64,000 nucleotides of DNA from Hydrogenophaga sp. PAMC20947 (lineage in GTDB: Bacteria > Pseudomonadota > Gammaproteobacteria > Burkholderiales > Burkholderiaceae_C), in assembly GCF_004795855.1 (NCBI RefSeq), contig NZ_CP039252.1:1-64000 (forward strand), given 5' to 3'. The translations under genes were made by a program, and so were the position numbers. Of this stretch, positions 20,983 through 30,721 are shown piece by piece. Position 1 is the stretch's first letter; each line of letters opens with the position of its first letter. The notes beneath the pieces are model-generated. The model did not search any database. It saw only the letters and a program-made list of their open reading frames with translations, and was not told the DNA's origin.

Positions 20983-22440
20983 TCAGGCGTTGCGTGCAGC
21001 CTCGGCCAGTTGCAGGGCCAGGCGGTTGTGCCGCTCAATCAGCGGATCAAGGTCGACCGTGGTCAGCTGACCTTGGCGCACGACGATACGGCCGTTGACC
21101 ACGGTGTAGGCCGCTTGCGGGCTGGCGCACAGCAGCAGACTGGCCACGGGATCGTGCACCGCACCGCCGGCGAAATTGAGCGTGCGCAGGTCGAACAGCG
21201 CCAGGTCGGCACACATGCCCTTGGCCAGGTGCCCGATGTCTTTGCGCCCCAGCACCTGTGCACCACCTCGCGTGGCCATGCCCAAGGCATCGCGGGCCGT
21301 CATCTCGGCCGGGCCGAGATCGCAGCCCAAAAAGGTCTGGCCATGTCGAACTTCGGGTGGCTGCAGGGCGCGGCCCACGCGCGCCAGCAGCAAGGCCTGG
21401 CGCGCTTCGTTGACCATGTGCGCCGCGTCGTTGCTGGCGCTGCCATCCACACCCAGCCCCACCGGCACCCCTGCATCGAGCAGGCGGCGCACGGGTGCAA
21501 TGCCTGAGGCCAGCCGCATGTTGCTGCAGGGGCAATGGGCCACGCCAGTGCGGCTGGCCGCGAACAGGCTGATGCCCTCATCGTCCAGCTTCACGCAGTG
21601 GGCATGCCACACGTCGTCGCCCAACCAGCCGAGCTCCTGTGCGTATTGGGCCGGTGTCTTGTTGAATTTTTCGCGGCTGTAGGCGATGTCGTGGTCGTTC
21701 TCGGCCAGGTGGGTGTGCAGGCGAACGCCTTGGCCTTTGAAGCTGCGCGCCAGCAGCGCACTTTGCTGCATCAGCGCCGGGCTGACTGAAAACGGGGAAC
21801 ACGGGGCCAGGGCGATCTGCAGCATGGCCCCGTGCTGCGCACCGTGCCAGGTTTCAATCAGACGCTGGCTGTCTTTCAGAATGGTGTCTTCTTGTTCGAC
21901 CACGCTGTCGGGTGGCAAGCCCCCGGCGCTCTGGCCCACGCTCATGCTGCCGCGTGTGGCGGTGAAGCGCATGCCGATCTCTGCGGCCGCCTCGATGCTG
22001 TCTTCCAGGCGCACGCCGTTGGGGAAGATGTACAAGTGGTCGCTGCTGGTGGTGCAGCCGCTCATCAACAGCTCGGCCATGGCGATCTGGGTGGACACCT
22101 GCACCATCTCGGGTGTCAGCCCGGCCCAAATGGGGTACAGCCCGCGCAGCCAGCCAAACAGCTCGGCGTTTTGCACACCGGGGATGGCCCGCGTGAGCGA
22201 CTGGGTCATGTGGTGGTGGGTGTTCACCAGCCCGGGGGTGACGAGGTGACCACGTGCATCGATCACATCGCCGGCTTCGTCGTGGAGCCCGGTTGGCAGC
22301 TCGGCGGCGGGGCCGATCCATTCAATGCGGTGGTCGCGGATGAACAGGCTGGCCTCTTTCAGCTCCAGCCCCTGAGCCGGATCTTCGTGGTTGAAGGTGG
22401 CGATGCATTGGGCGTTTTGGATGAGCAGGGAGGTGGTCAT
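20983..22440 (-). CDS. 8-Oxoguanine deaminase (amidohydrolase)
   Basis: A 485-residue amidohydrolase of the TrzA/AtzA subtype. Metal ligands: NTHHHMTQSL near 65, HTHLAEN near 240, AHCVKLD near 278 and GVDGSASND near 330; the last stretch with MVNEARQALLLAR and the region SDHLYIFPNG are typical of 8-oxoguanine deaminases, which turn 8-oxoguanine into urate and ammonia. Start MTTSLLIQNA; AGGGAGG-like sequence is not clear upstream. The product urate would enter the puuD-uraH-uraD-puuE-allC route encoded about 8-15 kb away, a good functional match. A related s-triazine or other deaminase activity cannot be excluded by eye. Confidence 0.87.
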   Translation of the reverse strand: MTTSLLIQNAQCIATFNHEDPAQGLELKEASLFIRDHRIEWIGPAAELPTGLHDEAGDVIDARGHLVTPGLVNTHHHMTQSLTRAIPGVQNAELFGWLRGLYPIWAGLTPEMVQVSTQIAMAELLMSGCTTSSDHLYIFPNGVRLEDSIEAAAEIGMRFTATRGSMSVGQSAGGLPPDSVVEQEDTILKDSQRLIETWHGAQHGAMLQIALAPCSPFSVSPALMQQSALLARSFKGQGVRLHTHLAENDHDIAYSREKFNKTPAQYAQELGWLGDDVWHAHCVKLDDEGISLFAASRTGVAHCPCSNMRLASGIAPVRRLLDAGVPVGLGVDGSASNDAAHMVNEARQALLLARVGRALQPPEVRHGQTFLGCDLGPAEMTARDALGMATRGGAQVLGRKDIGHLAKGMCADLALFDLRTLNFAGGAVHDPVASLLLCASPQAAYTVVNGRIVVRQGQLTTVDLDPLIERHNRLALQLAEAARNA

Positions 22441-22572
22441 GCGGGGGATTCTGCAGGTTTTGCGGTATCTTTTTGGGATTGTTTTCGTCTCTGCAATTTT
22501 GCCCGCCGGGCCGAGACCCGGCACGCCACAATCACCCAGCTGCACCGCCAACACGAAAGAGTCGGAACAACA

Positions 22573-23886
22573 ATGAACCCGCCTTCAACAGACGACCCCC
22601 GCGCCCTCCTGCGCCACCTCTTCAATGCAGCCGTGCAGCGCGCCCTCCCGCTGCACAACACCGCAGCCCACCTGCCTGCGCCCCCCAGGGGCCGCACTTT
22701 GGTGCTGGGCGCGGGCAAAGCGGGTGGCGCGATGGCTCAGGCGGTGGAGGCCTTGTGGCCGGCCGGTGCGCCACTCTCGGGTTTGGTTGTCACGCGCTAC
22801 CACCACACACCCCCGCGCCCCGAAGGGCTGGCGCATCGCATTGAGGTGGTGGAGGCCGCCCACCCCGTGCCTGACGCGGCGGGGATGGCTGCGGCTGAGC
22901 GCATCTTGCAGTTGACCCAAGGCCTGACGGCCGACGATCTGGTGTTGTGCCTGATCTCTGGTGGCGGGTCCGCCTTGCTCACACTGCCTTGTGAGGGGCT
23001 CACCCTGGACGACAAGCAGCGGATCAACCGCCAGTTGCTGGAGAGTGGCGCCAATATCCTGGAAATGAACACGGTGCGCAAACACCTGTCTGCCATCAAG
23101 GGCGGTCGGCTGGCCGCGGCCTGCGCGCCAGCGCGTGTGGTCACGCTCACCATCAGCGATGTGCCTGGCGATGACGTGAGTGTCATCGCCAGTGGCCCCA
23201 CGGTGGCCGATGCGTCCACCTGTGCCGAAGCGCTTGATGTCTTGCGCCGTTACGGCATTGAGGTACCGCCAGCGGTGCGATCCCAGCTGGAACGCGGAAA
23301 ACTGGAAACACCCAAAACCGGGGATGCCTGTTTCAGCGGTCATCGGACCCATCTCATCGCCACCCCCCAGCAAAGTCTGGACGCCGCGGCTGAAGCGGCT
23401 CGCGCAGTGGGGCTGAACGTGGTGGTGCTCAGCGATGAGATCGAAGGCGAGTCCCGCGAGGTGGGCAAGGTGCACGCGGCCCTGGCCCGTTCCACGGCCT
23501 TGGGGCGCAGCAGTTTTCAACGCCCTTGTGTGATCCTGAGCGGCGGCGAGACCACGGTCACGGTGCGTCCCCGCGCCGAAGGGCAACCCAGAGGCCGAGG
23601 CGGCCGGGCGGGGGAGTTCTGCCTGGGCCTGGCGCAGGCGCTGCACGACACGGCAGGTATCTGGGCGCTTGCGGCCGATACCGATGGCATCGACGGCGTC
23701 GAAGACAACGCGGGTGCCATCGTCACACCCGATACCGTGGCCCGCGGCCTCGAGCAGGGACTCAAGCTCACCGATCACCTGGCGCGCAACGACGCCTATG
23801 CCTACTTTGACGCGCTGGGCGATCTGGTGGTGACCGGACCCACCCACACCAACGTCAACGATTTTCGGGCTGTTTTGGTGTTGTGA
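22573..23886 (+). CDS. ttuD: Glycerate 2-kinase (TtuD/GckA, MOFRL family)
   Basis: A 437-residue enzyme of the MOFRL glycerate kinase family, phosphorylating D-glycerate to 2-phosphoglycerate. N-terminal DUF4147-type domain: LVLGAGKAGGAMAQAVE (near 43), CLISGGGSALL, NTVRKHLSAIKGGRLA, ISDVPGDDVSVIASGPT. C-terminal MOFRL domain: ILSGGETTVTVR, GRGGRAGEF and AADTDGIDG. Older names call it hydroxypyruvate reductase. Divergent from 8-oxoguanine deaminase. It can return glyoxylate carbon (via tartronate semialdehyde) to central metabolism, so it fits downstream of purine degradation, although glyoxylate carboligase is not in the window. Confidence 0.94.
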   Translation: MNPPSTDDPRALLRHLFNAAVQRALPLHNTAAHLPAPPRGRTLVLGAGKAGGAMAQAVEALWPAGAPLSGLVVTRYHHTPPRPEGLAHRIEVVEAAHPVPDAAGMAAAERILQLTQGLTADDLVLCLISGGGSALLTLPCEGLTLDDKQRINRQLLESGANILEMNTVRKHLSAIKGGRLAAACAPARVVTLTISDVPGDDVSVIASGPTVADASTCAEALDVLRRYGIEVPPAVRSQLERGKLETPKTGDACFSGHRTHLIATPQQSLDAAAEAARAVGLNVVVLSDEIEGESREVGKVHAALARSTALGRSSFQRPCVILSGGETTVTVRPRAEGQPRGRGGRAGEFCLGLAQALHDTAGIWALAADTDGIDGVEDNAGAIVTPDTVARGLEQGLKLTDHLARNDAYAYFDALGDLVVTGPTHTNVNDFRAVLVL

Positions 23887-24305: not shown

Positions 24306-25055
24306 TTGCGCGGCAGTTTCAAAAGTTCTTCTCACCGCTCTGCTTTGGTGCACCTGCTCAGTGAAAGCAGTGGCGTCAGCGCGGCTGCGCCCGTAGGGCA
24401 AGACTTTGCGGAACGGCTGGGTGCCTGGTTGAGCGTGGCCGATGCGATCACCTTGCGGTCAGCGCTGCAATCCCAGGCCGCCCCCATGGCGCCGGGTCGC
24501 ACCGGGGCGCCTGCACCGCACAGCCTGGCCGAAGAGCTTCAGCAAGTGCGCGCAACCCTCACCAAATCCATCGAGACGGCCGAGCCGGTGCAACCCCAGC
24601 GGGGCAGGGCGGATCACTCCGCCCAGGGTGCCCTCTCGGCACCGGCCTTGCCGCTTGACCCCGCCGCTGAGTTCGCCATGCTGCACCAGCGCTATGTTGA
24701 GCAACAGCGCCGCATGGAAATGAGCGTGGACGCCTTGCGCAGCCACGCCCGCGAGCGGCTCTCGGCGGCCTCACCCGAACTGGCGCAACTGGCGCTGCTG
24801 GACGGAGTAATGGACCAGATGCTCGGCGGGCGCGAGCAACACCTGCTGTCCACCGTGCCCACCTTTCTCAAGAAACGCTTTGAGCAACTGCGCCGCGAGG
24901 CGGCGAATGAAGCCAATCCGGACACCAGCCCCGATCTCTTGCAGCGGCCTGCCTGGCTAAGTCAGTTGACCACCGAATTCCAGCAGGCCCTGCTGGCCGA
25001 ACTGGAGCTGCGCTTGCAGCCCGTGGCGGGCATGGCCGAGGCGCTGGCTCTATGA
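24306..25055 (+). CDS. DUF3348 family protein, first gene of a ZorAB-like operon
   Basis: A 249-residue protein if started at TTG 24306, which has GAGGA eight bases ahead and gives the family-like N-terminus (SSSHRSALVHLLSE, then DFAERLGAWLSVADAITL). Middle part is Ala/Pro-rich; the C-terminal half is helical (MLHQRYVEQQRRMEMSVDALRSH begins near 130; FLKKRFEQLRREA near 200). No signal or membrane segment, so cytoplasmic. DUF3348 genes are, to my knowledge, found next to DUF802/OmpA/DUF2894 genes in betaproteobacteria and have no known function. Gap to the next gene is 142 bp and holds a repeat. Confidence 0.8.
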   Translation: MRGSFKSSSHRSALVHLLSESSGVSAAAPVGQDFAERLGAWLSVADAITLRSALQSQAAPMAPGRTGAPAPHSLAEELQQVRATLTKSIETAEPVQPQRGRADHSAQGALSAPALPLDPAAEFAMLHQRYVEQQRRMEMSVDALRSHARERLSAASPELAQLALLDGVMDQMLGGREQHLLSTVPTFLKKRFEQLRREAANEANPDTSPDLLQRPAWLSQLTTEFQQALLAELELRLQPVAGMAEALAL

Positions 25056-25059
25056 ACTT

Positions 25060-25165
25060 CTCCCTGCGCCACTTCGCGGCGTCCCCCTCTGGGGGACGGT
25101 GCCCTTTGGCTGGCGGAGCCGAGCCTTCGGCATCCGCTGGGTTGGGCATTTGCTGGCACGCCCCC
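25060..25165. repeat. Interspersed hairpin repeat between DUF3348 and DUF802 genes
   Basis: Contains TGCGCCACTTCGCGGCGTCC, the short inverted repeat GTCCCCCTCTGGGGGAC (25080-25096), then TTTGGCTGGCGGAGCCGAGC and an imperfect GC-rich tail. The layout (CGCGG block, C/G-rich hairpin, TGG-GCGG-GCC block) resembles the other REP-like elements in this window but is a different subtype. Confidence 0.55.
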
Positions 25166-25197
25166 TTTTTTGCTTTCCAGAATTGCAAGTCACAGAC

Positions 25198-27837
25198 ATG
25201 AACCGATCTCTCAACGCCGGCGTGCTAATCGGCGCATTTCTCCTTGGTCTGGCCGCCATCCTCTGGGTGGGCGCCGGTTTTGTGGGCACCAGCCACATCG
25301 CCCTGGCCATGACCTTCGCCATCGCCGCCGCCTACCTGGCCGGTGCGCTGGAGATTCGCCGATACCGGGGCCTGACAAAGGGTTTGGCAGGGGCCTTGGC
25401 GCAGGTGCCCGAGCCACTGAACCAGCTCGGTGACTGGCTGGGCAGCGTGCCTGCGCCATTGCAACATTCGGTGCGCCAGCGCATCGAAGGCGAGCGCGCC
25501 GCCTTGCCTGGCTTGTCGCTCACGCCTTACCTGATCGGCCTGCTGGTGATGCTCGGCATGCTGGGCACCTTCCTCGGCATGGTCGTGACCTTCAAAGGGG
25601 CGGTGTTTGCGCTTGAAGGCTCGGCCGATCTGGCGGCCATCCGCTCCGCACTCGCCGCGCCGATCAAGGGACTTGGCTTTGCGTTTGGTACCTCGGTGGC
25701 GGGTGTGGCCACTTCGGCCATGCTCGGCCTCATGTCGGCGCTGAGCCGCCGCGAGCGACTTGAAGTGGTTCGCACGCTCGACGCGCGCATCGCCACTGTG
25801 TTCCATCCGTTCACGTTCGCCTTCCAGCGCAACGCCTCGTTCGCCGCCATGCAGGCGCAGGCCAGCGCCTTGCCCGCCGTGGTGGACCAGTTGCAAGCCT
25901 TGATGACGTTGATGGAGCAGCGAGGCCAGCAGCTCGACACCCAGTTGCAAACCCGACAGGACCAGTTCCACCAGGAAACCGCCGCCGCCTACACCGGCCT
26001 GGGCCAGACCGTGGCGTTGTCGCTCAAGGAAACCCTCACCGCCAGTGCGCGTATCGCGGGCGAAACCATCCAGCCCGTGGTGGAATCGGCCATGAAGGCC
26101 ATTGCCGAAGAATCGACGCGACTGCACGGCCAGGTGAGCGAGTCGGTGCAAGCGCAGTTGAAGGGCTTGTCCAGCGAATTCAGCACCACCACCCACACCG
26201 TCGCCGACACCTGGAAACAGGCCCTGGACACCCAGGCCAAAACCAATACTGAGCTGGTGAGTGGACTGGGCCTGGCCTTGGTCGGGTTCAACCAGACGCT
26301 GGAACAACGCAGCCAGGCGTTGCTCAGCGACGTGACCGAAGCCATGGGTCGCCAGCAAAGCGAACAAACCCTGGCCGAAAAAAACAAGCAATCCGCCTGG
26401 GCGCAGACGCTGCAATCACAAGCCTCGGCCAGCGAAAAAATGGTCGTGCAATTGAGCGAGGCCTTGGCGGGTTTCAGCACCACCCTCGAGCAGCGCACCA
26501 CGGCTTTGTTGTCGAACATGGGCGAGGCCATCGGCCGTGTGCACAGCGAGCAGGCCGAATCCGAACAAGGCAAACAGGCCGCCTGGGCGATGACGCTGCA
26601 ATCGCAGGCCACGGCCAGCGAACAGATGGTGGCGCAATTGAGCGAAGCCCTGGCTGGGTTCAACACCACGTTTGAGCAGCGTGCCAGTGGCTTGCTGTCC
26701 CACGTGGGCCAGGCCATGAACCAGTCGCAGGCAGCGCATGCCCAGGCTGAGCAACAAAAGCAGGCCGCATGGACTCAAGCCTTGCAAACCATGGCCGCCG
26801 GATTGCAAAACGAATGGCATACGGTGGGCAGCCAGAACCTGGCGCAACAACAGGCCGTGGGTCAATCGCTGGCGCAGGCCGCGGCGGCCATCCGCCAAAG
26901 CGCCACCGAACAAGCGAAACAGACGCAAGAAGAAATGTCGCGCCTGCTGGAGGCTTCTGAAGCGCTCGTGAAAGCGCGCAGCGAGGCAGAAACCCAGTGG
27001 GCCACCCAACAAGGCGAGCGCATGGACCAGCTTGCCGGCCTGTGGCGCAGCGAGCTCTCTGCGTTGCGCACCGAAGAAAGCGCGCGCGGCGAATCGGCGG
27101 TGGCACGCCTGGCCAGTTGGCAAGACGGGCTGACCAGCCAGTTGCAAACCCTTCGCCGCGAAGAAGACCAGCGCGGCGAGGCTGCGGTCAACCGACTGGG
27201 CGAGCTGCAAACGGCCATGGCCAGCCACCTCGCCACCTTGGGCGAGGCGCTGGAAGCACCGATGACGCGCCTGTTGGAGACGGCCTCCGAAGCGCCCAAG
27301 GCCGCGGCTGAGGTGATCGCGCAACTGCGCCAGGAAATGAGCCACCTCACCGAACGCGACAACCTCGCGCTGCAAGAGCGCACCGCGCTGGTGGGCAACC
27401 TCGGCACGCTGCTGCAAAGCGTGGAGCACGCCACAGGCGAACAACGTGCTGCCATCGAATCGCTGGTGACATCGGCCACCGGTGTGCTCGACCAGGTGAG
27501 CCAGCAGTTCAGCGCCACACTGGAAACACAGGCCAGCAACACCAACGAAGTCGCCGCGCAAGTGGCGGGCAGCGCAGCCGAGCTGGCCAGTCTGGGCGAA
27601 GCGTTTCACCACGGCGTGATGCTCTTCAGCGAATCCAACCAGAAGCTGGTCGACAAGTTGCAGCACATCGAAGGCGCGATATCGAAGAACATGGCGCGCA
27701 GCGACGAGCAACTGGCCTACTACGTGGCGCAAGCGCGTGAGGTGATTGATCTCAGCATCAGCTCGCAACAAGGCATCGTGGAAGACCTGCGCCGTCTGCG
27801 CGGCAGCGGCAAGGCCGCTGCCGGGAGCGCCGCATGA
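25198..27837 (+). CDS. DUF802 protein: MotA/ZorA-like membrane channel with very long coiled tail
   Basis: An 879-residue protein. Four membrane segments are visible at about 7-29, 33-52, 109-131 and 157-183. The last two carry MotA/TolQ/ExbB-like motifs: LGMLGTFLGMVVTF and FGTSVAGVATSAMLGLMSAL. From about 190 to the end the chain is hydrophilic, Gln/Ala/Glu-rich and predicted helical, as in the long cytoplasmic tail of ZorA. Residues 340-525 are three direct 62-residue repeats, each opening just after a Trp (see 26215-26772). Start MNRSLNAGVL; the frame upstream runs through a repeat. It overlaps the OmpA gene by 4 bp. The architecture implies a proton-driven stator with the next gene product; function is not established. 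Confidence 0.85.
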   Translation: MNRSLNAGVLIGAFLLGLAAILWVGAGFVGTSHIALAMTFAIAAAYLAGALEIRRYRGLTKGLAGALAQVPEPLNQLGDWLGSVPAPLQHSVRQRIEGERAALPGLSLTPYLIGLLVMLGMLGTFLGMVVTFKGAVFALEGSADLAAIRSALAAPIKGLGFAFGTSVAGVATSAMLGLMSALSRRERLEVVRTLDARIATVFHPFTFAFQRNASFAAMQAQASALPAVVDQLQALMTLMEQRGQQLDTQLQTRQDQFHQETAAAYTGLGQTVALSLKETLTASARIAGETIQPVVESAMKAIAEESTRLHGQVSESVQAQLKGLSSEFSTTTHTVADTWKQALDTQAKTNTELVSGLGLALVGFNQTLEQRSQALLSDVTEAMGRQQSEQTLAEKNKQSAWAQTLQSQASASEKMVVQLSEALAGFSTTLEQRTTALLSNMGEAIGRVHSEQAESEQGKQAAWAMTLQSQATASEQMVAQLSEALAGFNTTFEQRASGLLSHVGQAMNQSQAAHAQAEQQKQAAWTQALQTMAAGLQNEWHTVGSQNLAQQQAVGQSLAQAAAAIRQSATEQAKQTQEEMSRLLEASEALVKARSEAETQWATQQGERMDQLAGLWRSELSALRTEESARGESAVARLASWQDGLTSQLQTLRREEDQRGEAAVNRLGELQTAMASHLATLGEALEAPMTRLLETASEAPKAAAEVIAQLRQEMSHLTERDNLALQERTALVGNLGTLLQSVEHATGEQRAAIESLVTSATGVLDQVSQQFSATLETQASNTNEVAAQVAGSAAELASLGEAFHHGVMLFSESNQKLVDKLQHIEGAISKNMARSDEQLAYYVAQAREVIDLSISSQQGIVEDLRRLRGSGKAAAGSAA
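26215..26772 (+). repeat. Three in-register 186-bp repeats in the DUF802 tail
   Basis: Units 26215-26400, 26401-26586 and 26587-26772 are each exactly 186 bp (62 codons); each is preceded by TGG (Trp). Protein copies share Leu-x-Gln-Ser-Gln-Ala, LSEALAGF, LEQR and a KQ(S/A)AW end. Copies 2 and 3 are closest; copy 1 is more diverged. Repeat-number change would lengthen the tail without breaking the frame. Confidence 0.9.
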
Positions 27838-28556
27838 TCGGAGCAGAGTTCGAAGCCCACGCCAGCAGCGAAGACGACGGCGTCGAGCAGGCAGCGCCTG
27901 TGTGGGCGGTGTTCGGCGATCTGATGGCCGGCGTGGTGGGTGCGTTTGTGCTCATCCTGATTTCGGTGCTCGCCATGCAGATGGATCTGGTGGCCAGCTT
28001 GCAATCAGAAATTGAGAAGCGGCACCAAGAAGAAGCCCGCCGCATGGCGCTGGAAAAGGCGCTCGCCATTCCGCTGCAGTCGGGTCGTGTGACGCTCAAC
28101 AACGGCCGCATCGGCATCAGCGGCAGCGTGTTGTTTGATTTGAATTCTGATGATTTGCGAGAAGAAGGTCGCCTCTTGCTCAAGAGCCTGGTGCCGCCCT
28201 TGCAGCTGTATTTGAGCGAGACCGGTCAGATGCTTATGGTGAGCGGCTTCACCGACGACCGCCCGATCCAGGAAGGCAACCTGCATTTCAAAGACAACCT
28301 CGAGCTCTCTGCCCAACGCGCGCTCAACGTGACCCGCGCGCTCATCGCAGAAGGCATGCCGCGCGCGCAGGTCTTCAGCGCTGCTTTCGGCGCCGAGCAG
28401 CCCGTGGCTTCCAACACAGATGCCCAGGGCAGGGCTCAAAACCGCCGCGTGGAAATGGCGCCCGTGCCCCGCACAGCGAATGTGAAAGCAGGAGCCGACG
28501 GCGGTGCGGCTGCCGCTGCAGGTGCTGCCCGGCCCGCTGAGAAGGCACCCGGCTGA
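27834..28556 (+). CDS. OmpA-domain protein, MotB/ZorB-like partner
   Basis: A 240-residue protein with one membrane segment near the N-terminus (about 23-48: FGDLMAGVVGAFVLILISVL) and a C-terminal OmpA-like peptidoglycan-binding domain (VLFDLNSDDLREEG, VSGFTDDRPI, LSAQRALNVTRALI, GRAQNRRVEM). Asp29 at the start of the membrane helix sits where MotB (Asp32) and ZorB carry their proton-binding Asp. The ATGA overlap with the DUF802 gene and the TGATG overlap with the next gene imply translational coupling and complex formation. So the pair looks like a 5:2-type stator unit anchored to the cell wall. A flagellar MotB role is unlikely since no flagellar genes are nearby. Confidence 0.88.
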   Translation: MIGAEFEAHASSEDDGVEQAAPVWAVFGDLMAGVVGAFVLILISVLAMQMDLVASLQSEIEKRHQEEARRMALEKALAIPLQSGRVTLNNGRIGISGSVLFDLNSDDLREEGRLLLKSLVPPLQLYLSETGQMLMVSGFTDDRPIQEGNLHFKDNLELSAQRALNVTRALIAEGMPRAQVFSAAFGAEQPVASNTDAQGRAQNRRVEMAPVPRTANVKAGADGGAAAAAGAARPAEKAPG

Positions 28557-29413
28557 TGAGCGAAGCGGGGGCATCTTTGAACACGCTGGACCTGGACGAG
28601 GTACTTGCGAGCGTTGAAGCGCTGCGGACCAGTGACGCCAGCCTTGCCAACGCTTCACGAAGCCTGGACCCCGTTCGCCTGCACTACATCGAAGCCCTGA
28701 CCCGCCGCCTGCAAGCCGCGCCGCCCGCGGTTCAAACGGTGTTGCACGCCAAGTTGTTGGTTGCGCTGAAAGCGCTGAGCGGGGGTACCGAAGCCGAGGC
28801 GGTTGCTCGGCCGTTGGCACCCCCATTGGCGAATGAAGCCAGCGATCCTCCTCTCGTGCATCCTGAACCCATTGAAGGGCTTGCCCCAGCTCCAGCCCCT
28901 GCACCGCGCAAACCCAGGCCCAAAGCCCAGCCTGAAGCCGCGCCTCCAGCCGCCCCTTTGTCGTTGCTCGGGCAACTCAACCAGCACATTCAAACAGCCT
29001 CTTCACAGCCAGACAGCGTTGGCCGTGGCAGCGCCCCGAAAAGCTTCGGCCAGGCGACGCCCTACCTGGACCTCAAAAGCGCCATCCGCTTCCGAGAAAC
29101 CTGGGCCCGAATCAGCGCGGAAACAGAAGTGGATCAGGCCGCTCACCGGGCCCCTGAAAACGCCGGCCCGCTCAATGCCCACAACCTCGTGCTGCGCACT
29201 CTTTCGCTCATGCGCGAACTCTCGCCCGACTACCTGCGCCGGTTCATGAGCCACACCGAGTCGCTGCTGTGGCTGGACCAGGCCCATGGACAGTTGAAAC
29301 AGCCCGCTGGCAAAGCCAAAACGGCCAGGTTGTCAAAAGTGACGAAAGTGCCGAAAGTGCCGAAAGTGCCGAAAGTGCCAAAAACGACAAAAGCGACAAA
29401 GGCCGAGCATTGA
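28556..29413 (+). CDS. DUF2894 family protein
   Basis: A 285-residue cytoplasmic protein coupled to the OmpA gene by a TGATG overlap. N-terminal helical part (VLASVEALRTSD, VRLHYIEALTRRLQAAPPAV), a Pro/Ala linker (about 95-140), then the conserved DUF2894 core: YLDLKSAIRFRETWARISAE and MRELSPDYLRRFMSHTESLLWLDQ. The C-terminus is a Lys-rich tail of KVP triplets from a 9-bp DNA repeat. The family is uncharacterised; constant company of DUF802/OmpA genes suggests a cytosolic partner or effector of the membrane motor. Confidence 0.83.
   Translation: MSEAGASLNTLDLDEVLASVEALRTSDASLANASRSLDPVRLHYIEALTRRLQAAPPAVQTVLHAKLLVALKALSGGTEAEAVARPLAPPLANEASDPPLVHPEPIEGLAPAPAPAPRKPRPKAQPEAAPPAAPLSLLGQLNQHIQTASSQPDSVGRGSAPKSFGQATPYLDLKSAIRFRETWARISAETEVDQAAHRAPENAGPLNAHNLVLRTLSLMRELSPDYLRRFMSHTESLLWLDQAHGQLKQPAGKAKTARLSKVTKVPKVPKVPKVPKTTKATKAEH
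29345..29379 (+). repeat. 9-bp tandem repeat coding for Lys-Val-Pro triplets
   Basis: Four near-exact copies of AAAGTGCCG inside the 3' end of the DUF2894 gene give KVPKVPKVPKVP; degenerate copies flank them (KVTK before, KTTKATK after). Prone to copy-number change in steps of three residues. Confidence 0.85.
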
Positions 29414-29524: not shown

Positions 29525-30721
29525 ATGAGTATTGATGTGATCGTGGTGTTGTGCGCGCTGACCGCCGGCGGACTGTTGCTCTGGCGAAAGCTGGCAGGCA
29601 ATCGCCTGTGGCGGGCGAGCACCACGCCGTTGGCATCGATCATTGGCAGCGGGTTTTTGGTGTTGGGGCCGCTGCTGAGCCACAGCTATGGCCGGTGGGC
29701 GCCTGCTGTGATGGCCATGCTGTGCCTGGCGGCCTATGCCTTTGGTTGGGTGGTGCGGGTCAACATCGCAGCCATAGACGCACAGCAACGCAGCCCCATG
29801 CAGGAACGTTGGGACGATGTCTCTTCCTGGGTGTTGGTGGTGGCCTACGTCATATCGGTGGCCTACTACCTCAACCTGTTCGGCGCCTTCGGCTTGAACC
29901 TGTTTCTCCCGAACAGCGAGATGGGCCCCAAGTTGTTGACCAGCGCCGCCTATGTCCTGATTGCGGTGGTGGGACTGACCAAGGGGTTCGGTGCGCTTGA
30001 GCTGATGGAGCGTTTTTCCGTGGGCTTGAAGCTGGCCATCATCGCTGGTCTGCTGGGTGGTTTGGCGGTGTTTTTTGCGCAACGCGGCGTGGCGCATGAG
30101 TGGGTGTTCAGCCCGCCGTCGGTGCATGGCATCTCGGCGTTGACCCTGGCCTTTGGCCTGATCGTGACGGTGCAGGGGTTCGAGACCTCGCGCTACCTCG
30201 GCCTTGCCTACGATGCCAGCACCCGCATCCAGTCCATGCGTGTGGCGCAGTGGTTGTCGGCCTTCATCTACATGGTCTACGTGGTGTTGCTGACCTACAG
30301 CTTTGCAGGCGATGCGGTGCCCCATTCAGAGACCGCAATCATCGATTTGATGCGCAAAGTGGCCTGGATACTGCCGCCCTTGCTGGTGGGGGCCGCGCTC
30401 AGTGCGCAGTTCAGCGCCGCGGTGGCCGACACCAGCGGCTCCGGCGGCCTGGTGCGGGAACTCAGTGGCGGGCGAGTGCCCGAGCGAAGGGCGTATGTGG
30501 TTCTGGCTGTCGTGGGCCTGGCGCTGACCTGGATGCTGCATGTGTTCGAAATCATCGCCCTGGCCAGCCGCGCCTTCGCCTTGTATTACGCCATTCAAGC
30601 GGCCATTGCCACCCTGGCGTTGAAACAACAGAGGCGGCCGATCGCTATGCTGGGCGCAGCCAGCCTGTCGTTGACTGGATTGCTCATCGCTGTGTTTGGA
30701 CGGGCCATTGAAGGCGGGTGA
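29525..30721 (+). CDS. Polytopic membrane protein, APC/LeuT-fold-like, unknown substrate
   Basis: A 398-residue protein with about eleven hydrophobic segments. The early segment STTPLASIIGSGFLVLGPLL recalls the broken first helix of APC-superfamily transporters (GxG near a GSGFL turn), and GFETSRYLGLAYDASTRIQSMR with a preceding helix is also transporter-like. I do not recognise a precise family. It follows the DUF2894 gene by about 110 bp in the same direction; whether it belongs to that operon is uncertain. Confidence 0.6.
   Translation: MSIDVIVVLCALTAGGLLLWRKLAGNRLWRASTTPLASIIGSGFLVLGPLLSHSYGRWAPAVMAMLCLAAYAFGWVVRVNIAAIDAQQRSPMQERWDDVSSWVLVVAYVISVAYYLNLFGAFGLNLFLPNSEMGPKLLTSAAYVLIAVVGLTKGFGALELMERFSVGLKLAIIAGLLGGLAVFFAQRGVAHEWVFSPPSVHGISALTLAFGLIVTVQGFETSRYLGLAYDASTRIQSMRVAQWLSAFIYMVYVVLLTYSFAGDAVPHSETAIIDLMRKVAWILPPLLVGAALSAQFSAAVADTSGSGGLVRELSGGRVPERRAYVVLAVVGLALTWMLHVFEIIALASRAFALYYAIQAAIATLALKQQRRPIAMLGAASLSLTGLLIAVFGRAIEGG

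Follow-up and report, generated by a model that had tools for sequence, protein, structure and literature searches.

A probable Zorya type III phage-defence operon in Hydrogenophaga sp. PAMC20947

Zorya type III was named in 2021 for loci in which a DUF3348 gene and a DUF2894 gene flank a Zorya core pair, with 6,401 pairs given in the available text (Payne et al., 2021; PMC8565338). The core pair is spelled 'zorBC' in the Results of that paper, while its Discussion speaks of ZorA, ZorB, ZorF and ZorG. A second paper, in its accessible portions, likewise describes Zorya type III with DUF3348 and DUF2894, and in both ZorF is the DUF3348 protein and ZorG the DUF2894 protein (PMC8565338; PMC11890865). 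We use these names here; the labels of models PDLC00652-00658 in PADLOC-DB 2.0.0 are swapped relative to the papers (DUF3348 as ZorG3, DUF2894 as ZorF3). When the operon of Stenotrophomonas nitritireducens was placed in E. coli BL21-AI, the plaquing of at least one phage was lowered, according to the available text (PMC8565338). For Zorya types I and II, the sections at hand state that the Asp and its ion flow, binding to the cell wall and the ZorA tail are all needed, that a ring of Ser and Thr residues surrounds the ZorB Asp, and that this Asp has a counterpart in MotB (PMC11890865).

Gene content and assignment of the operon

The operon lies in a 64,000-nucleotide stretch of Hydrogenophaga sp. 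PAMC20947 DNA, referred to here as the window. Those close relatives of its DUF3348 protein that carry a species name come from Hydrogenophaga, in keeping with this genus. An initial annotation had placed four genes at 24306-29413, a DUF802 gene and an OmpA gene coupled by overlap and flanked by DUF3348 and DUF2894 genes, and the coordinates and the Pfam and PADLOC matches agree with this layout (Table 1). The zorA and zorB frames overlap by 4 bases, and zorB and the DUF2894 gene by 1 base. The TTG at 24306 agrees with the first residue in some ZorF homologues. Pfam places DUF802 on ZorA in three stretches (E 1.5e-20) and OmpA on ZorB (E 2.6e-15). The gap between the ZorF and ZorA genes (25056-25180) holds a G+C-rich inverted sequence with one more partial copy, at 73%, in the genome. 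Just 3' of the operon, at 29525-30721, lies a frame of 398 residues with no Pfam match at E <= 0.001.

Table 1. Features of the operon and its upstream neighbour in the window.
Feature	Position	Strand	Evidence
ZorF / DUF3348 protein	24306..25055	+	Pfam PF11828 E 4.1e-58; PADLOC PDLC00658 E 3.3e-63
ZorA type III (membrane stator subunit, long cytoplasmic tail)	25198..27837	+	PADLOC ZorA3 E 1.2e-268; 879 aa
ZorB type III (single-span, OmpA-like)	27834..28556	+	PADLOC ZorB3 E 4.7e-103
ZorG / DUF2894 protein, basic C-terminal tail	28556..29413	+	Pfam PF11445 E 1.6e-43; PADLOC PDLC00652 E 3.1e-51
Glycerate-kinase-like neighbour (DUF4147 + MOFRL), outside the system	22579..23886	+	Pfam E 4.4e-86, 4.9e-36

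In a profile search, all four proteins match the PADLOC families of Zorya type III, and the ZorA3 and ZorB3 models score far better on the window pair than the ZorA1, ZorA2, ZorB1 and ZorB2 models. Judging from these sequence matches, we consider the window operon to be a Zorya type III phage-defence operon, with a probability of roughly 0.9. The system type is already published, and the window operon is an ordinary, well-formed member of it. The initial annotation had called the combination uncharacterised, which was mistaken, since type III is defined in the literature by this very set, ZorAB accompanied by DUF3348 and DUF2894. Its broader reading, of a Zorya-like and MotAB-like stator working with partners other than ZorC, ZorD and ZorE, is borne out by the PADLOC matches and by the MotB, ZorB and ZorA profile matches described below. 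The phage-defence role that it suggested is probably right, given the Zorya III matches and the published protection by the Stenotrophomonas homologue. PADLOC found no ZorC, ZorD or ZorE match in 10 neighbouring frames, as the annotation had reported and as belongs to the type III definition, and the ZorE model PDLC00644 had no match in the organism's own genome.

Several results count against the type III defence reading. No NCBIfam ZorA model passes its cut-off on the window ZorA, the best being antiphage_ZorA_2 with 32.5 of 100 bits, and among the best 25 of 36 NCBIfam matches ZorB passes one model only, PRK09040.1, which is named hypothetical protein. In addition, the accessible text of a Burkholderia infection transcriptome describes a change confined to the first gene, or the first two, of Zorya III (PMC12584637).

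The ZorA-ZorB pair and the ZorA tail

The OmpA-like protein had been described as having a single span with Asp29 in its membrane helix. Hydropathy flags one ZorB helix, residues 30-48, with Asp29 at its start, and all 118 sequences compared have Asp at this position (the window and 117 loci in which ZorB was found); the variation among orthologs that the initial annotation had held would speak against its reading was thus not seen. ZorB residues D154, N155, L158, S159, R162, N203, R204 and R205 are each at least 97% conserved, and some of these highly conserved OmpA-domain residues presumably form the peptidoglycan-binding motif. Against solved structures, ZorB gives 50 matches at E <= 0.001, including MotB (6ysl, E 4.6e-15) and, weakly, 8qyd (E 6.7e-4), whose chain 8qyd_F carries the entry label "membrane protein" and which we take to be ZorB.

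The match to solved MotB proteins is what would favor a flagellar, Tol or Ton stator paralogue, an explanation that we find hardly credible: the type III models fit the pair far better than those of types I and II, and the pair sits in a conserved four-gene operon with DUF3348 and DUF2894. Furthermore, no flagellar Pfam family was found in 20 neighbouring frames (some of which had no Pfam match of any kind), in keeping with the lack of nearby flagellar genes noted in the initial annotation.

For ZorA, a crude hydropathy scan flags two membrane segments, residues 7-25 and 112-130. A profile built from the membrane part of 26 ZorA sequences matches 8vvn_C (E 1.8e-5) over profile positions 107-193, corresponding to the last two helices, with the next match at E 0.3. 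The 8vvn entry is labeled as a MotA/TolQ/ExbB domain protein, and its 696 residues and the available text of PMC11890865 fit ZorA type I of Shewanella. Thus, the four membrane segments originally proposed for ZorA stand in part, two being seen by hydropathy and the last two helices by the profile, with the rest coming from alignment; similarly, the proposed MotA/ExbB fold of residues 1-200 has the support of a sequence profile over those last two helices. T165, S166 and S173 are invariant in all 26 chosen sequences. Taken by homology of ZorA and ZorB to known stators, the stator reading of the pair holds.

Behind the membrane part, the window ZorA has a tail of 677 residues from the last-helix motif to a conserved tip, close to the roughly 690 estimated before, with a 62-residue repeat at about residues 326-533. 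Tail length ranges from 360 to 860 residues in type III (90 measured of 121 with Zorya), whereas the accessible text of PMC11890865 describes the components of types I and II as keeping much the same size within each type. Between R834 and S853, sixteen positions reach at least 95% conservation in 120 aligned rows, some of them fragments, and a second conserved patch lies at about residues 692-749. A tip that stays constant while the rod behind it varies in length would suit a docking role.

Distribution, chromosomal site and divergence

DUF3348 was found in 43 of 60 genomes of the genus, 56 of 200 of the family and 7 of 274 of the class. Among good genomes, defined as at least 90% complete and at most 5% contaminated, the corresponding counts are 33/38, 55/179 and 7/236, and none of 14 control genomes carries it. 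As a yardstick, the type I restriction domain HSDR_N, which pools many systems, is present in 25 of the 38 good genus genomes. For DUF2894 the counts are 46 of 60 genus genomes, with 44 above the cut-off, and 34 of 38 good ones, with 32 above it; the two good genomes that fall below are G248 and G256. The DUF2894 family also passes its cut-off in one unrelated control genome, that of Corynebacterium glutamicum.

To describe the operon's surroundings we used loci from 40 of the 43 DUF3348-bearing genus genomes, the window being among the other three. The gene order ZorF-A-B-G is found in 36 of these 40 loci and in 67 of 80 loci from other genomes. Three loci (L095, L096 and L131) and one genus locus have the order AFBG or FAGB, probably because over-long frames were sorted by their starts. 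Another locus, L052 in genome G242, has ZorF and ZorA, but ZorB gave no match in the stretch retrieved and DUF2894 none in the genome; it is perhaps a partial operon.

The gene upstream of the window operon has the DUF4147 and MOFRL domain pair, from which we take it to be a glycerate kinase; its start was chosen by eye, and the Pfam scan used a longer frame, 21832-23886. At least 1.5 kb of upstream sequence is available for 36 of the 40 loci. In 21 of them the kinase gene is found on the same strand no more than 2.5 kb upstream; in 8 others the distance is 2.5-8.4 kb, and in 7, including G203, the nearest relative in the rpoB tree, the gene is not seen. With the kinase nearby in 29 of 36 loci, the site is therefore usual but not strictly fixed.

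Seventeen genus genomes, several of them less than 90% complete, are Zorya-free. Fourteen of these have a kinase match; 11 loci were taken, and 10 had readable downstream genes. One of four landmark genes lies near the same kinase in 8 of these 10, which indicates that the operon can be absent. Among 34 Zorya-bearing loci, the operon is followed by one of these four genes in 13; the window belongs to the 21 that lack them. In Zorya-free G248 (locus L204), a helix-turn-helix gene and, after it, a DUF6036 nucleotidyltransferase gene lie downstream of the kinase match, at a distance of about 240-1450 bases, and G240 (L212), also Zorya-free, has a similar helix-turn-helix gene at that site. These genes are possibly other cargo at the same site and could represent a toxin-antitoxin-like pair.

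The proteins themselves diverge rapidly. Of 30 genomes searched for rpoB, 25 had a usable frame, and among these mean pairwise identity is 94.5% for rpoB, 57.8% for ZorF, 66.8% for ZorA, 76.8% for ZorB and 57.7% for ZorG. Distances of the Zorya proteins correlate with those of rpoB at rho 0.43-0.55, with 0 of 499 permutations as high. The four Zorya proteins correlate with one another at rho 0.57-0.74 in the same 25 genomes, above the rpoB values, as expected of genes inherited together. Of the 13 rpoB splits with good support, 5 are recovered in the joint Zorya tree and 5 to 7 in trees of single genes. These comparisons fit vertical descent mixed with exchange, plus fast change; fast divergence is by itself no proof of an arms race.

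The operon could conceivably serve Hydrogenophaga chiefly in envelope maintenance or stress, with phage protection arising as a by-product of overexpression. Near-fixation in good genus genomes, one chromosomal gene usually nearby and mostly metabolic neighbours devoid of PADLOC matches in 10 frames all point that way; near-fixation together with the lack of PADLOC-positive neighbours, unlike a typical fast-moving defence island, also counts against the defence reading. However, the system is patchy in the family and class, its proteins diverge far faster than rpoB, the operon can be absent from its site, and phage protection has been published, as far as the available text goes (PMC8565338). 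We consider such an envelope role very unlikely. With a near-fixed system and Zorya-free relatives that carry the same landmarks, Hydrogenophaga is a natural place to test the native role.

ZorF, ZorG and the possible mode of action

The structure model of ZorF is a helical bundle (mean pLDDT 77.9, pTM 0.71) with no significant match in the PDB, while ZorG is poorly modelled (pTM 0.32). In all 35 ZorG sequences compared, the window protein plus 34 homologues hand-picked (not randomly sampled) from 120 listed of 452 matches, the last 30 residues are basic, with a net charge of +3 to +8 and a median of 5. By the same measure, the values for 24 other genes of the window span -6 to +8, with one above 4. 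Pfam, PADLOC and NCBIfam detect no nuclease, helicase or other enzyme domain in ZorF or ZorG, so that nothing visible corresponds to the effector step in types I and II, which we count against the defence reading. Zorya type III protects from phages, yet in the place taken by DNA-attacking effectors in types I and II it has two partners for which these searches gave no domain of known function.

Within Zorya type III, one possible mode of action is that ion leakage through ZorA3-ZorB3 suffices to stop the infected cell, with ZorF and ZorG mere gates. Such leakage would agree with two partners lacking nuclease or helicase domains, with the single ZorE model unmatched in the organism's own genome and with the proposal by Payne et al., in the available text, that ZorF and ZorG regulate ZorAB (PMC8565338). 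We find it doubtful, as the long tail and conserved tip suggest docking rather than a simple channel, and the tail is needed in types I and II (PMC11890865, accessible sections).

Membership by sequence, the homology of ZorA and ZorB and the conservation of Asp29 are observed directly, and anti-phage activity is published for a homologue. From here, the working of the Zorya type III operon may be pictured by analogy. Following the 5:2 assembly in types I and II, five subunits of ZorA and two of ZorB would make up an ion-driven motor in the inner membrane, and the OmpA domain of ZorB would grip the cell wall upon disturbance by a phage. Ions would then pass Asp29 against the Ser/Thr ring of ZorA, causing the ZorA rod to turn or reshape. 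We give about even odds to the rod tip handing the signal to ZorF and ZorG, and the basic tail of ZorG may contact nucleic acid or membrane. A bolder version of this picture makes Zorya III nuclease-free: the variable-length rod with its fixed tip would bring ZorF and the basic-tailed ZorG to incoming phage DNA or a breached membrane and impose a mechanical or electrical block. In Hydrogenophaga the system would then have turned into an immune organ that is near-core, evolves fast and mostly stays close to a single chromosomal site. We regard this bolder scheme as unlikely.

A promising-looking sequence finding has thus resolved to a named, published defence system. Compared with Zorya type III as given in the available text of PMC8565338, all four genes and their coupling are alike and there is no difference of kind; the window ZorA bears a run of 62-residue repeats. 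Types I and II share with the window operon the ZorA/ZorB core, the conserved membrane Asp, the OmpA domain and the long cytoplasmic tail, but DUF3348 and DUF2894 proteins take the place of ZorC and ZorD (type I) or ZorE (type II). Finally, MotB and PomB of the MotAB/PomAB flagellar stators resemble the OmpA domain of ZorB and have the membrane Asp in common, whereas the window system has no flagellar neighbours in the 20 frames searched, a long ZorA tail and other partners.
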